A stretch of 64,000 nt of DNA from an uncultured Alphaproteobacteria bacterium (GTDB taxonomy: Bacteria; Pseudomonadota; Alphaproteobacteria; MPNO01; UBA2964). Positions 37,529-43,162 of the stretch are shown here, piece by piece. The translations under genes were made by a program, and so were the position numbers. Numbering within the stretch: the stretch's first letter is position 1; the number at the start of each line of letters is the position of its first letter. The stretch lies in assembly GCA_951812775.1 (NCBI GenBank), contig OX638326.1, positions 3,887,180-3,951,179 of the forward strand. Reading direction: 5' to 3'. The notes below the pieces were generated by a model that was not told the DNA's origin, searched no databases, and saw nothing but the letters and a program-made list of their open reading frames with translations.

Positions 37529-39337
37529 ATGAAGAATCTTAAGTTTCTCAAATCGGCATGCCCTTCGCCTGCAGTATTGAAATCCGGACCAGCCGCGTTT
37601 CGTGCTCGGTTCTTTACAATACCTTTAATTGCATCGATTGCGCTGGTTTCAGCCTGTATTGAAGGTGACGATTCTACAATAATTGCGACTGTTAATGGTC
37701 CGCAGTCTTCAGGACAGTCAGCGCCTGGCCTGCAGCTCGTTTCTGCGTCTGGGAAATATCTTGCCGGACGCTATGCTCGCCGCAGCCGCGATTTTGGAAC
37801 TGCGGCAGATTATCTGTCGGATGCGTTGTCGATTGATGCCAGCAACCGTCAAATTCGGCGGCAAACATTTTTCGCTCTTGTCGCAGGCGGACGGATGCAG
37901 GAAGCGGCAGTTCTGGCCAAAGAGATCGTTGCTGCCGATAAAGGGGCAGCCGTCGCGAATTTGAGTTTGATTGTCGAAGATGCCTTAGCTTCTAAATTTG
38001 ATGCGGCCGCAAAACGGCTTGATACCATGCCGCGTCGGGGCATGAGCACGTTCGCAGCTCCCCTGCTGTTGGCATGGGCAAAAGCTGCTCTTGGCGACGT
38101 CGATGGTGCGATAAAGTCTCTCGATACGCTCAAGAAGATCGCTTCTTTTTCAGCGCTGCGAAATATGCATATCGGTCTTATTTATGAGCAAGCGGGTAAA
38201 ACGGAACTGGCCGAACAGTCTCTTAAAAAAGCGTCAGAAGGGACCGATTCCATCCGCGTTGTTATGGAATACGGATATTTCCTGGAACGTCAGGGCCGCG
38301 TAGCAGAGGCGGAAGCGCTTTATAAGCGATATATCGCAAAGAACAGTAGTGATGCGCTGGAAGGAACGCTGGAACGCATTGCGGCAAAAAAACCACCACC
38401 CGCCTTTGTGGCGACCGCCAAGGATGGTTTGGCAGAGGTGTTTTTCAATCTTGCGGGAACGTTGGCTCAAGGCCGCTCGTCAGATCTTGCGTTGATTTAT
38501 GGCAGGATGGCTCTCCGCCTTCGACCGGATTTTCCCCTTGCACAGCTGTTGCTGGGCGGATTGCTGGAGTCCCTGTCGCGTGGTGCTGATGCCATCGCTC
38601 TTTATAGAAAGGTAGATCCGAATTCTTCAGTTTCCTGGTCTGCACGGTTACGACAGGCGTCCAGCCTGGACGAGTTGGGTAAAACGGAAGAAGCAATCAC
38701 ATTGCTCGACAAGATGGCGGCGGAACGCAAGGACCGGTTTGAACCCCTTATCCGGATTGGTGACTTACATCGTTCAAAGAAAAATTTTGAAGAAGCGATC
38801 AGTGCCTATGACCGGGCCATAAAACGCGTTGGCACATTAGAAAAAAATCACTGGTCACTCTTGTACGCACGCGGTATTGCGTTTGAACGCTCCAAGAACT
38901 GGCCAAATGCCGAGAAAGACTTTTTACGTGCTTTGGAGCTTAGCCCTGAACAGCCGTTTGTGTTGAACTATCTTGGCTATTCCTGGGTTGATCAGGGGAT
39001 AAAGCTCGAACGGGCTAAAAAGATGATCCGGCGTGCGGTGGAGCTTCGTCCAAATGATGGCTATATCGTCGATAGTCTTGGATGGGTTTTGTATCGCCTT
39101 GGAGATTATGCCGGCGCGGCAAAGAATCTCGAACGTGCCGTCGTCTTACGGCCCGAAGACCCGACAATTAACGATCATCTTGGGGACGCGTATTGGCGCG
39201 TTGGTCGAAAGTTTGAGGCCCGGTTTCAGTGGAAGCGCGCCTTGTCGCTTGATCCTGAAAAGGACCTTATTCCTCAGATTGAAAAAAAATTGCGCGATGG
39301 GCTGAAAAGTAAAGACGACGGAGATGGTCGCAGTTGA
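37529..39337 (+). CDS. TPR-repeat lipoprotein
   Basis: 602 residues: N-terminal export signal with a lipobox (VSAC, Cys43), followed almost wholly by tetratricopeptide repeats (for example EAISAYDRAIKRV, NAEKDFLRALELSPEQPFVL and GAAKNLERAVVLRPEDPTI). Likely an outer-membrane-attached scaffold for protein complexes. The stop overlaps the ispE start, so the two are translationally coupled. The exact role is unknown. Confidence 0.88.
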   Translation: MKNLKFLKSACPSPAVLKSGPAAFRARFFTIPLIASIALVSACIEGDDSTIIATVNGPQSSGQSAPGLQLVSASGKYLAGRYARRSRDFGTAADYLSDALSIDASNRQIRRQTFFALVAGGRMQEAAVLAKEIVAADKGAAVANLSLIVEDALASKFDAAAKRLDTMPRRGMSTFAAPLLLAWAKAALGDVDGAIKSLDTLKKIASFSALRNMHIGLIYEQAGKTELAEQSLKKASEGTDSIRVVMEYGYFLERQGRVAEAEALYKRYIAKNSSDALEGTLERIAAKKPPPAFVATAKDGLAEVFFNLAGTLAQGRSSDLALIYGRMALRLRPDFPLAQLLLGGLLESLSRGADAIALYRKVDPNSSVSWSARLRQASSLDELGKTEEAITLLDKMAAERKDRFEPLIRIGDLHRSKKNFEEAISAYDRAIKRVGTLEKNHWSLLYARGIAFERSKNWPNAEKDFLRALELSPEQPFVLNYLGYSWVDQGIKLERAKKMIRRAVELRPNDGYIVDSLGWVLYRLGDYAGAAKNLERAVVLRPEDPTINDHLGDAYWRVGRKFEARFQWKRALSLDPEKDLIPQIEKKLRDGLKSKDDGDGRS

Positions 39338-40218
39338 CGGACCAGTCCGACCGGGCCTCCAAACGCCAAATTTCAGTTCATGCTGCGGCGAAAATAAATC
39401 TTTTTCTGCACGTTACCGGCCGACGTCCGGATGGCTATCACGAACTAGACAGTCTGGTCGGCTTTACCGAATTCGGCGACCAGATTTCGGTTGAACGCGC
39501 GGAAGAGGTTTCTTTAAAAGTTGATGGTCCTTTCAGCGTTGGTTTGCCTGTTAACGAGGACAACCTAGTCTTGAGGGCGGCCAGATCGTTGGCGCGCGAG
39601 ACCGGGTGTCAAAGCGGTGCTGCAATAACGCTGCAAAAGAACCTACCCGTATCTTCAGGTATTGGGGGCGGCTCTGCCGATGCTGCTGCAACGCTGCATG
39701 CACTTAATGAGCTTTGGCAAACTAATCTATCGCCCGAAGAACTGGCACAGATTGGCCTCGGCCTTGGCGCCGATGTGCCGGTGTGTCTTTTGAGCAAGAC
39801 AGCGCGAATGAGCGGTATTGGCGAAGTTATTCGTCCGGTGCCGCCATTGCCCGGTCTTGGCGTCCTGATGATAAATCCCCGTATTCCTGTTTCGACGCCA
39901 CAGGTGTTCAAAGCCCGTCATGGACCGTTTTCGAGTGTTGTCGGAGAAGCGGTACCTGCGGATCGTACAGGTTTTTGTACATTTCTTATGTCTCAAAACA
40001 ACGACCTGCAATACCCGGCTATTGAGTTGGTGCCGGAAATCGCAAAAATACTGGAAACACTATCGGCGCAAGCGGGGTGCCATGTGGCCCGACTGTCTGG
40101 CAGTGGCGCAACCAGTTTCGGATTGTTTGATGATCAAGAGGTAGCAGCAGAGGCAGGCAGAACACTTTCTACACAGCATGTTGATTGGTGGTTTCAGCCG
40201 ACACGTTTCCTGTCGTAA
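39334..40218 (+). CDS. ispE: 4-diphosphocytidyl-2-C-methyl-D-erythritol kinase
   Basis: GHMP kinase of the MEP isoprenoid pathway; 294 residues. Diagnostic parts are AAAKINLFLHVTGRRPDGYHE at the start (shown in part), the ATP loop PVSSGIGGGSADAAA and the closing RLSGSGATSFGLF. The start is TTG 39334, overlapping the stop of the TPR gene by 4 bases; the product opens with a short polar leader before ISVHAAAKINL, as expected. Ends 15 bases from the convergent PodJ-like gene. Confidence 0.95.
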   Translation: MTDQSDRASKRQISVHAAAKINLFLHVTGRRPDGYHELDSLVGFTEFGDQISVERAEEVSLKVDGPFSVGLPVNEDNLVLRAARSLARETGCQSGAAITLQKNLPVSSGIGGGSADAAATLHALNELWQTNLSPEELAQIGLGLGADVPVCLLSKTARMSGIGEVIRPVPPLPGLGVLMINPRIPVSTPQVFKARHGPFSSVVGEAVPADRTGFCTFLMSQNNDLQYPAIELVPEIAKILETLSAQAGCHVARLSGSGATSFGLFDDQEVAAEAGRTLSTQHVDWWFQPTRFLS

Positions 40219-40233
40219 TTAGGTCTTAATATC

Positions 40234-41727
40234 TTAACGATCACCAGGTGCTGGTGCGGATACCTTTACCGGGGCCATGGCGCCAACGACTTGGCGGAGG
40301 TCGCTGAGGAGAGAAGGCGTGGCTTTCCCGTCTACCTTCAACCCAGCGAACCGCTGATACATTTTTATTGCTTCAACTGTTTTTCGTCCTATGACACCGT
40401 CGGGTGTTCCAGGTGCGAGATCGAGGCGGCCTAGCAATCGCTGGATGTCGAAAACCTCTGCTTTGTTTAGGCCGCCTTTGTTAGGCGCGCCAGCAGCCGA
40501 CGCTGTTGCTGTCGCCTGACTAATCTCAGCGGGTGTTGGCGCCGTCTTGGCGACTATAACTGTTTGTTTGAGTTTCTTGGCTGCTTCGGCGCTACCCGCC
40601 GTCAGTGCCTTATTGTAGAAGGCCATCGCGGTCTTGGCATTTTTGGGGACACCAAGCCCATGCTCATGCATAAGGCCGAGACTAAACATGGAATCGGCGA
40701 GGCCACTCTCGCTGCCCTTGCCGAACCAGTGGGCTGCTTTTTTGTAATTTTTCGGCGTTCCCTTCCCCTGCGCATAAAGTGTACCGAGATTATGTTGAGC
40801 TCTGGTATGACCTTTACTGGCTGCTTTCTGGTACCAGGATAATGCTTGAACGGCGTTTTTCTCTACCCCGCTTCCGGTTTCATAAAGAAGGCCAAGATTA
40901 TATTGAGCAGGTGTTATTCCACCTACTGCAGCCTTTTCGAGAAATATCACCGCTTGTTTCGGGTTTTTGGCAACACCCTTTCCACTCAGATAGCGATTGG
41001 CTAACTCGAACTGCGCTTTGTGATTTCCGTTCGCTGCTTCTTGTTTCAGACTTTTTATATCACCGGCATTTCTAATGGGCTCAGCTGTAGGCTTCGTTGG
41101 TACCGCCGCAGCTGTCGATGTCGAAGCTTTGGCGATTGGCTCATGAGCAGGCGTTGGCTTTGGTTTTGCTGCAGCGATCTGTTGTGGTTTTGAGGGCGTT
41201 TGCTCGAGATTGTTGTCGTAAAGCCAAACGCCGCCAAGCACTGCCGCGACGACAGCGCTGCCGAGTAATCCTATTCTGGAAAACCGAGACCCATTGGATG
41301 TCGCCGAGGCCGCAACGACAGTGTTCATATCTGCAGTGTCTATATCTGTAGATGGCGGCCGGTTACCTAACCCGCCCGCTCTGTCATCCTGCTCAGCTGT
41401 TTCCGTTTCGCCACGAGCTGCTTTGAGAGCTTTTTCAACATCAAAGCTCTTCACCGTCGCATCAACGGGCGTTTCATTTATTGAAGTATCTGCTGCGCTC
41501 CGATTAGTAACGTCGCCGGACAGACCAGCCACGCTTGTTGTTTGCTCTGCTTCGTTTACGACTGAAGTTTCAGCTGGCGCAGAAGAAGCTGGGCTTTCGG
41601 CGCGGGCTTTTATCGCACGATCAACCCATGCCCCAATGGTCAGCCCATGACGTTTGGCTGCCTCCCGAGCAATTTGGCGTGCGTCTTGATCAACTCCCTT
41701 AACACTCCAGGGGCTGGACCGTGCCAT
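40234..41727 (-). CDS. PodJ-like membrane protein with Sel1 repeats and peptidoglycan-binding domain
   Basis: ATG 41727 (MARSSPWSVKGVDQDAR) is used, with GGGAGGAG about 8 bases before it. About 497 residues: an N-terminal module (1-45, PWSVKGVDQDARQIAREAAKR then GLTIGAWVDRAI), an acidic/Ser-Thr-rich cytoplasmic linker, one membrane segment (about 152-171), at least four Sel1/TPR-like repeats (AQYNLGLLYETGSGVEKN type), and a C-terminal peptidoglycan-binding domain (IQRLLGRLDLAPGTPDGVIG). This is the topology of Caulobacter PodJ, a cell-pole organiser, in much shorter form and without its long coiled coil. Two neighbours share the N-terminal module. Confidence 0.85.
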   Translation of the reverse strand: MARSSPWSVKGVDQDARQIAREAAKRHGLTIGAWVDRAIKARAESPASSAPAETSVVNEAEQTTSVAGLSGDVTNRSAADTSINETPVDATVKSFDVEKALKAARGETETAEQDDRAGGLGNRPPSTDIDTADMNTVVAASATSNGSRFSRIGLLGSAVVAAVLGGVWLYDNNLEQTPSKPQQIAAAKPKPTPAHEPIAKASTSTAAAVPTKPTAEPIRNAGDIKSLKQEAANGNHKAQFELANRYLSGKGVAKNPKQAVIFLEKAAVGGITPAQYNLGLLYETGSGVEKNAVQALSWYQKAASKGHTRAQHNLGTLYAQGKGTPKNYKKAAHWFGKGSESGLADSMFSLGLMHEHGLGVPKNAKTAMAFYNKALTAGSAEAAKKLKQTVIVAKTAPTPAEISQATATASAAGAPNKGGLNKAEVFDIQRLLGRLDLAPGTPDGVIGRKTVEAIKMYQRFAGLKVDGKATPSLLSDLRQVVGAMAPVKVSAPAPGDR

Positions 41728-41852
41728 ATTCCGAACTCCTCCCACCTGTAACTATACTGGGGTGGCGACACCCTTGTTAAGGGGAAATTCGGCTAAGTAT
41801 GGTTAATAATCCGTAAAAATTTTAAGTAATGCAAAAAACCGAAAGATCGAAA

Positions 41853-41880
41853 AGTTTGAGGAGATTCAAACTCTCAATTC
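41853..41880 (-). terminator. Weak hairpin between the two larger PodJ-module genes
   Basis: AGTTTG and CAAACT (41853-41858, 41867-41872) form a 6-bp stem; on the minus strand a T-rich stretch follows. It could terminate the upstream gene (41924-42652). Weak. Confidence 0.3.
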
Positions 41881-41923
41881 AATTTAGGTTTTGCAGTTAG
41901 CGCGTGAGACGATTTACCTGAGG

Positions 41924-42652
41924 TCAGTCCCGATTCTTCCGCCACCATCCGCCTTCGGATTTTCTCTTCCGTCTATTGGGACTTTCTTCCATTTTATCCA
42001 GCCGCTCAGTGATCCGCATAACGGCCCGTTCTACCGGTGCGGTAGACACTGATTTTTGGGATTGGACTTCTTCGACCTGGGCAGAAAGTTGATTTACCTG
42101 TTCCGCCAATGGCGCTACTGCCGCCGTAGTTTTACGTTCTGCTTCATCAACGCGGTTGCCGAGAGACTGGATGCTCTCAAACAGGGCCTGAATTGTGGGG
42201 GCCGGTAGAGGGGCCTGGCCACTGCCATAGTTGGAGCCTGCCTGTTCGGCAAATCCGTTTTGCTGTGGCGGAGGCGGGGGCGGCATTCCGTAGTCGCCGG
42301 CACTTGGAGGTGGTCCCCCGGCAGGATTAAATTGCTGGTTGGGACCATATTGCTGCGACGGATTATATTGTTGTCCGGAATTATACTGCTGACCGGCATT
42401 ATATTGTTGCCCGGAATTGTATTGCTGAGACGGGTTGTATTGCTGAGACGGGTTGTATTGTTGCTGTGGGTCTGGTTCTGGTGGTGTGTTGGCCTGTTGA
42501 GAGCCGGTTAGCTGCTCCGTCGCAACTGTTCGGATGGTTTGGGTGAGCCACGCGCCCACAGTTTGCCCCGACCGCCGGGCAGCAATTTTGGCGGCCTCGC
42601 GTGCTTCAGGGTCTACGCCCTTAACACTCCAGGGGGAAACATTCGCTGCCAT
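41924..42652 (-). CDS. Protein with PodJ-type N-terminal module, QQYN repeats and coiled coil
   Basis: 242 residues: the shared module at the N-terminus (SPWSVKGVDPEAREAAKIA then GQTVGAWLTQTI), a low-complexity repeat region with six-residue units of the form QQYN-x-x (about residues 68-107), a Pro-rich stretch (PPPPPPQQNG), and a helical coiled-coil-like C-terminus (GNRVDEAERKTTAAVAPLAEQVNQL, shown in part) with a very basic tail. No membrane segment or signal. A soluble scaffold or adaptor fits; the repeats could drive condensation. No named family beyond the module. Confidence 0.78.
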   Translation of the reverse strand: MAANVSPWSVKGVDPEAREAAKIAARRSGQTVGAWLTQTIRTVATEQLTGSQQANTPPEPDPQQQYNPSQQYNPSQQYNSGQQYNAGQQYNSGQQYNPSQQYGPNQQFNPAGGPPPSAGDYGMPPPPPPQQNGFAEQAGSNYGSGQAPLPAPTIQALFESIQSLGNRVDEAERKTTAAVAPLAEQVNQLSAQVEEVQSQKSVSTAPVERAVMRITERLDKMEESPNRRKRKSEGGWWRKNRD

Positions 42653-42731
42653 TGTCCTAAATCACACTCATTTTGGGCCATCAAACGAGGCATTATTTGG
42701 GGGTACCAATAGCCCTACCATCATTCAATTC

Positions 42732-42746
42732 GGCATACCTTATGCC
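42732..42746. promoter_or_regulatory. Palindrome upstream of the QQYN-repeat gene
   Basis: GGCATA (42732-42737) and TATGCC (42741-42746) form a perfect inverted repeat around CCT, about 80 bases ahead of the start at 42652, in a 261-base AT-rich intergenic stretch. Candidate operator. Confidence 0.35.
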
Positions 42747-42913
42747 ATAAAATCAATAAATTGCAAGCATTTGTGGTAGGTCCACCAATCATACCAAGGT
42801 AATATTTGGCCATATTGCCCAGCTAAGATAATCGGATCATCTGATAGCAGTTTTGCGGGTGTTTTAACGCAATCGACCTCTGTCGAGGGGTCTAACAGCG
42901 ATTAAGGGGTGGT

Positions 42914-43162
42914 TTATACGTTTCCGGTCGCAGCGCGCATCATTGCTCGCTCAATTGAGCTCATGCGAGCTATTTGCGGCAACGATTCAGAGATATCTTC
43001 TGAATATCCCGTTTTGCTTTGCTGTTCGACGGCATGCAATTCACGTATCGCGTCGGAGATCCATGTACCAATGGAGACACCTTCCGCTTCCGCGCAAGCC
43101 TTAACAGCCGCACGTGCTTCACTGGAAACGCCTCTTAGGCTCCAACTGGATTTGTCTGACAT
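42914..43162 (-). CDS. Small protein consisting mainly of the PodJ-type N-terminal module
   Basis: ATG 43162 (MSDKSSWSLRGVSSEAR) gives 82 residues; a TTG two codons earlier is less likely. The first 45 residues match the module of the two preceding genes (WSLRGVSSEARAAVKACAEAE, GVSIGTWISDAI), followed by a short polar and helical tail. A beta strand followed by two helices is suggested, which recalls ribbon-helix-helix DNA-binding proteins. Function unknown. It lies just before the tRNA-Gln gene and is on the opposite strand. Confidence 0.72.
   Translation of the reverse strand: MSDKSSWSLRGVSSEARAAVKACAEAEGVSIGTWISDAIRELHAVEQQSKTGYSEDISESLPQIARMSSIERAMMRAATGNV

Follow-up and report, generated by a model that had tools for sequence, protein, structure and literature searches.

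Caulobacter PodJ is a condensate-forming scaffold (PMC9684454). Its cytoplasmic part, residues 1-601/635, comprises ~600 residues with the coiled coils CC1-6 and a disordered region (PMC9684454, PMC8980812). Without residues 1-249, the cytoplasmic part no longer accumulates at the pole, and this role of the region has been credited to the coiled coils (PMC8980812). Loss of PodJ also affects the chromosome, with origins displaced from the pole or loosened there (PMC9239152, PMC10127582). Specifically, deletion of podJ in Agrobacterium causes origins to move off the old pole, and GFP-PodJ is barely enriched at origins in ChIP-seq; the authors consider the effect of PodJ indirect, perhaps exerted via "other unknown origin-anchoring proteins" (PMC9239152).

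Here we analyse a locus of three genes, one of which resembles PodJ in layout. It lies in a 64,000-nucleotide stretch of DNA from an uncultured Alphaproteobacteria bacterium, hereinafter designated the window; all positions given for the three genes are window positions. In searches of the openly accessible literature, we found no description of a ribbon-helix-helix (RHH) module in PodJ or of a PodJ-ParB gene trio.

Architecture of the three genes and their shared module

The first-pass annotation proposed that three consecutive minus-strand genes begin with one N-terminal module. Consistent with this proposal, the minus strand contains ORFs at 43162-42914, 42652-41924, and 41727-40234, hereinafter designated gene S, gene M, and gene L, respectively. 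The N-terminal ~45 residues of the three products form a nearly gapless alignment, with 52% and 35% identity to the first, and follow a common pattern: S-x-W-S-[VL]-[KR]-G-V, a helix containing E-A-R or D-A-R, and G-x-[ST]-[IV]-G-x-W. The positions occupied by W, S, G, V, A, R, A, G, G, W, I, and A are invariant. The module copies are encoded, all on the minus strand, at 43025..43162 in gene S (MSDKSSWSLRGVSSEAR...IGTWISDAIRELHAVE), at 42512..42652 in gene M (ANVSPWSVKGVDPEAREAAKIAARRSGQTVGAWLTQTIRTVATEQ), and at 41590..41727 in gene L (MARSSPWSVKGVDQDARQIAREAAKRHGLTIGAWVDRAIKARAESP); across families, the copy in gene M is the best conserved. A whole-genome search with the second module as query recovers the other two at E values of 8e-11 and 2e-6, followed by noise at 0.7. 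The three copies, located together, are all that the genome-wide search finds in the 4.15-Mb genome.

The intergenic gaps of the trio are ~200–270 bp here, which makes a single transcript uncertain. A promoter-like site, TTAACA-18-TATAGT (10/12), is located at 41780-41751 on the minus strand, just upstream of gene L, so gene L may be transcribed separately. A convergent gene at 39334..40218 on the plus strand, named ispE from a reading of its sequence, is a conserved neighbour that has a relative in 16 of the 27 loci sampled; we treat it as context outside the system.

Gene S (42914..43162, minus strand) encodes 82 aa, namely the RHH-like module and a short tail ending SSIERAMMRAATGNV. On first reading, this product was thought to be little more than the module. 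That description does not hold, as in four genera of the family the small proteins also keep the C-terminal tail SSIERAMMR. The tail resembles a C-terminal motif of the gene M product, APVERAVMR.

Gene M (41924..42652, minus strand) encodes 242 aa in the order of module, QQYN/P-rich linker, helical coiled-coil-like region, conserved PxERAxxRxxERLxxxE helix, and basic/aromatic C-terminus. The QQYN repeats that had been noted in this product occupy 42323..42469 and are also found in two relatives (loci L005 and L104); matches to the repeats from Clostridia and Eubacterium were of low complexity and were discarded. The coiled coil that had been proposed corresponds to a helical, coiled-coil-like region with weak matches to coiled-coil Pfam families, which together with the conserved APVERAVMRITERLDKME helix spans 41981..42193. 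A motif of the type P-x-E-R-A-x-x-R-[LIM]-x-E-R-[LVM] occurs ~27–46 residues from the end in 23 of 24 medium-sized proteins and in 0.8% of control ORFs. The C-terminal tip here is GGWWRKNRD (41927..41953), while the tips in relatives are peptides resembling G-[FL]-x-x-R-L-F-x-R (14 of 24 medium-sized proteins by a simple pattern, versus 3.8% of control ORFs). These C-terminal peptides may resemble membrane tips of the MinD/FtsA type, and the tip of the gene M product may likewise bind membrane. A plasmid search with the module of the medium-sized protein gave no match.

Gene L (40234..41727, minus strand) encodes 497 aa and contains, after the module, a ~100-aa linker of low-complexity sequence (residues 47–148), a membrane segment, Sel1 repeats, and a peptidoglycan-binding domain. 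This composition agrees with the first reading of the product. Specifically, a hydropathy scan predicts the membrane segment near residue 149 (41218..41283), four Sel1 repeats at 40570..41040 match Pfam (PF08238, E = 5.8e-40) and solved Sel1 chains, and PG_binding_1 is matched at 40294..40473 (PF01471, E = 3.4e-13). The PHROGs matches of this product (P0001) fall on its Sel1 and peptidoglycan-binding parts.

Frame breaks are seen in close relatives. In two genomes of the genus, the gene L orthologue (L005, 6924-8493; L104, 6537-7094) is broken between the module and the membrane segment, reflecting either sequencing error in metagenome-assembled genomes (MAGs) or real decay; the gene is intact in the window and in L006. 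The gene M orthologue of L006 (5992-6705) is broken within the QQYN repeats, probably by an assembly error in the repeat.

Fold of the module

The module represents a domain family missing from Pfam. None of the Pfam or NCBIfam models matches it at cut-off, PADLOC and PHROGs return no convincing match to the module itself, and a PDB sequence search with a single sequence or a profile yields designed proteins and chance matches only. The weak Pfam matches of module sequences are largely to RHH families, including HicB, PSK_trans_fac, FitA-like_RHH, TacA1, and NikA. A RuvA_C Pfam match to P0003 (E = 0.002, below cut-off) was discounted, as it is restricted to the helices and occurs in few members.

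In hhalign, the module aligns without gaps to a set of FitA-type RHH sequences built from genomes of the class, with a score of 21.7 and a probability of 66%, while 200 column shuffles reach at most 14.6. The score against RHH_1 is 17.6 (shuffles at most 13.1), and the reference comparison of FitA with RHH_1 scores 24.5. Thus, at profile level, the module resembles a known RHH family more closely than its column-shuffled controls do. The AlphaFold2 (AF2) model of the small protein contains helices at residues 14–27 and 31–52 with pLDDT >90, and its strand is unpaired, as expected of a monomer. Foldseek searches point in the same direction, with RHH proteins, counted by title, making up ~40 of the 50 rows listed, each at an E value above 1. 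VIA-align gives Z scores up to 6.0, middling by that tool's own note. A natural tandem-module protein was modelled as a possible single-chain dimer; its AF2 model has a low pTM (0.39) and shows no strand pairing.

Because independent lines (profile–profile comparison, AF2 model, and structure searches) agree, the module is most likely a divergent RHH fold, closest to the FitA type, an assignment that we regard as strongly supported. The same fold had been suspected at first sight from the strand-helix-helix pattern, and none of the AF2, Foldseek, and VIA comparisons points to a structure unlike RHH. The assignment suggests how the start of proteins of PodJ layout, so far uncharacterised, might fold; this start lies inside the kind of region that is needed for polar accumulation.

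Could the module be a working DNA-binding RHH domain? Its strand, S-[VL]-[KR]-G, matches T-I-R-N of FitA and might contact an operator or the nucleoid, in which case the proteins would be autorepressors or DNA-to-membrane tethers. In the gapless alignment, the strand arginine of FitA is matched by K/R, and the RHH structural matches include DNA-bound repressors and MatP. However, the strand is acidic or non-basic in many module copies (for example, FNLTDL and IERL), and the nearly invariant W and G are atypical of RHH operators. Fusion of the module to whole ParB in relatives, described below, suggests that other domains supply the DNA contact. GFP-PodJ, moreover, is not clearly enriched at origins in ChIP-seq (PMC9239152), which is relevant only if Agrobacterium PodJ has the module. 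We therefore regard DNA binding by the module as unlikely and favour a role in pairing. RHH domains are obligate dimers, and the modules would thus be expected to pair, homotypically or heterotypically, bringing the S and M products to the L product.

Distribution and conservation of the trio

In a first survey of relatives, several genomes of the family proved to have three modules side by side. In a survey of 387 genomes of the class, the module is present in 97. Counted from the survey table, there are three copies in 22 genomes, two in 14, five in one, and one in 60. In genomes with exactly three copies, the coordinates listed by the class survey place them close together and on one strand.

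We read 40 loci and then 20 more, several of them from MAGs with possible frame errors. In the 25 loci that contain at least three module genes, these genes are consecutive and share a strand. The largest protein, encoded by the membrane/Sel1 gene, is last in 23 of the 25 rows; in L005 and L104, where it is not, the gene is interrupted by frame breaks. The order of the trio is kept in at least ten families of Alphaproteobacteria. The first-pass annotation named absence of the trio from relatives as evidence against a common system; instead, adjacent modules are kept in order across families, and the trio is a conserved unit and no peculiarity of this genome.

For 22 trio loci from nine families, we compared each module with the modules outside its own family. 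In 79% of cases the best match comes from the equivalent position in the row of genes, versus 33% when labels are permuted per family, and none of 5000 shuffles reaches as high a value. An ispE-like gene and a TPR gene are located beside the locus in 16–17 of 27 sampled loci. The same-position matching and the conserved ispE-like and TPR neighbours together indicate that the trio order is ancient. Position-specific matching rules out a recent tandem duplication in this lineage; as judged from sequence, the position-specific paralogy of the modules is ancient.

In genomes with a single copy, the module starts proteins of ~900–1200 aa that have a membrane segment and, in most cases, Sel1-like repeats. 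Four sampled single-copy loci have a common neighbourhood, which is different from that of the trio locus. In three other loci (L109, L112, and L113), the module, with the sequence YWKLDGVSP, follows an unrelated N-terminal part of ~60–100 residues; these proteins possibly form a separate regulator family.

ParB fusions and comparison with described systems

In eight genomes from five families, a module gene of this locus is fused to ParB (G130, G354, and G217 of family f107; G042 of f20; G390 and G083 of f60; G033 of f11; G098 of f75). The fusion is the first gene in all rows with at least two module genes, i.e., in all carriers but G083. In a Pfam scan of seven fused proteins, six have ParB_N and HTH_ParB over both cut-offs, and the fused protein of locus L121 has ParB_N over cut-off and HTH_ParB just below. 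The ParB dimerisation domain is also matched in three of the seven, one just below cut-off. The G354 fusion was recognised by similarity. A separate canonical ParB is present in seven of the eight genomes, the exception being the MAG G042, in which none was found.

R173 and G201 of ParB are parS-contact residues that are absolutely conserved in orthologues (PMC7383237). The fused ParBs of G130, G354, G217, and G042 keep the equivalents of both residues together with the CTP-binding motifs. In the fused ParBs of G390 and G033, CTP-binding motifs, parS-contact motifs, or both are altered; in those of G083 and G098, which were read for CTP binding, the CTP-binding motifs are altered. Resolution of the ParB tree is insufficient either to date the fusion or to tell one event from several.

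Two further arrangements were seen. In L114 (6977-8149), ParB stands between one module before it and a second module after it, with an ispE-like gene adjoining and no PodJ-like gene detected beside it. In L079 (5111-10124), from the MAG G042, there is a row of four module genes, one encoding a two-module chain and one fused to ParB.

Gene S of the window has no ParB part. The window genome encodes a canonical ParB, with parS palindromes close by, and a PopZ family member (PF10691) as a separate gene, indicating that the usual polar machinery is present. Among 11 genomes scanned, parS-like palindromes are present near canonical parB and none was seen at the trio locus. The suggestion of the first-pass annotation that membrane, wall, and DNA might be linked thus gains indirect support from the ParB fusions that relatives carry at this locus, but not from the small gene here.

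That the small gene lacks ParB could mean that gene S is what is left of an ancestral module-ParB fusion and that its partner role has gone in this genome. The fusions always take first place in rows with at least two module genes, which is the place of gene S here, and their erosion is graded. However, the small proteins of four genera keep both module and C-terminal motif, which implies selection, and the ParB tree, being poorly resolved, does not place the origin of the fusion. We consider a remnant decidedly improbable.

The trio could instead be an ordinary polar organiser of PodJ type with two tandem paralogues and no connection to DNA, the module serving only for polar targeting or self-assembly and the ParB fusions being lineage-specific accidents. 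Single-copy genomes, where the module starts ~900–1200-aa proteins of PodJ layout, and the eroded state of several fused ParBs are in line with such an organiser. Recurrence of the fusion at this locus in five families speaks against accidents, as does the retention of CTP-binding motifs, R173, and G201 in four of the eight fused ParBs. Overall, we find this explanation rather unlikely.

The reading that we put forward, with confidence that is evenly balanced, is that the trio forms an envelope-anchored scaffold joined by its shared RHH-type dimerisation module and, in some lineages, tethers the chromosome via ParB. The gene L product would fix the scaffold to the inner membrane and, through the Sel1 repeats and the peptidoglycan-binding domain, to the wall. 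The gene M product, as the soluble member, would combine a disordered linker and a coiled-coil-like region with a C-terminal tip, basic and amphipathic, that possibly touches the membrane. The gene S product may be a small adaptor or capping subunit. The assembly would most likely be located at the cell pole. In relatives with ParB on the first module gene of the row, the complex could tether the chromosome origin to the envelope, whereas in the window genome any chromosome link would be indirect.

A bolder version, which we advance tentatively and consider less likely than not, is that the trio represents an undescribed envelope-to-chromosome tether of Alphaproteobacteria. An RHH fold would have been turned from DNA binding to heterotypic pairing, so that a membrane protein anchored to the wall is joined to a soluble scaffold and, in several lineages, to a second, dedicated ParB that binds parS. 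Such a tether could supply the proposed origin-anchoring partner of PodJ. The conserved trio and the module-joined ParB in several families make a direct link between envelope and origin testable.

Compared with the polar hubs PopZ and HubP, the trio is similar in its proposed role, as a scaffold that would hold the chromosome origin at the pole, but no sequence relation was seen. With RHH antitoxins of the FitA/VapB type, the module shares its predicted strand-helix-helix order, the gapless profile alignment, and a G-x-S/T turn between the helices. Unlike these antitoxins, it has a nearly invariant W before the strand and another W in helix B, and it is fused to scaffold, wall-binding, or ParB domains; among the ORFs adjoining the trio, no toxin gene was seen. 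The fused proteins of relatives resemble ParB in containing ParB_N, HTH_ParB, and, in some cases, ParB_C. They differ from it in that they start with the module, sit in the trio locus, and, in seven of eight genomes, add to a canonical ParB.

In layout, the likeness is to PodJ, the type to which the 497-aa protein was initially referred. In both the gene L product and PodJ, a single membrane segment precedes periplasmic Sel1/TPR repeats and a peptidoglycan-binding domain, and in relatives the N-terminal module is found in large proteins of PodJ layout. However, the predicted cytoplasmic part of the gene L product is only ~150 residues long and contains neither the coiled-coil nor the disordered region of PodJ. 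Because this long cytoplasmic region is lacking, we retain the resemblance in layout and do not class the protein as PodJ. The trio locus differs further in its two extra module genes and in its position beside ispE, whereas the four sampled single-copy loci share another neighbourhood.
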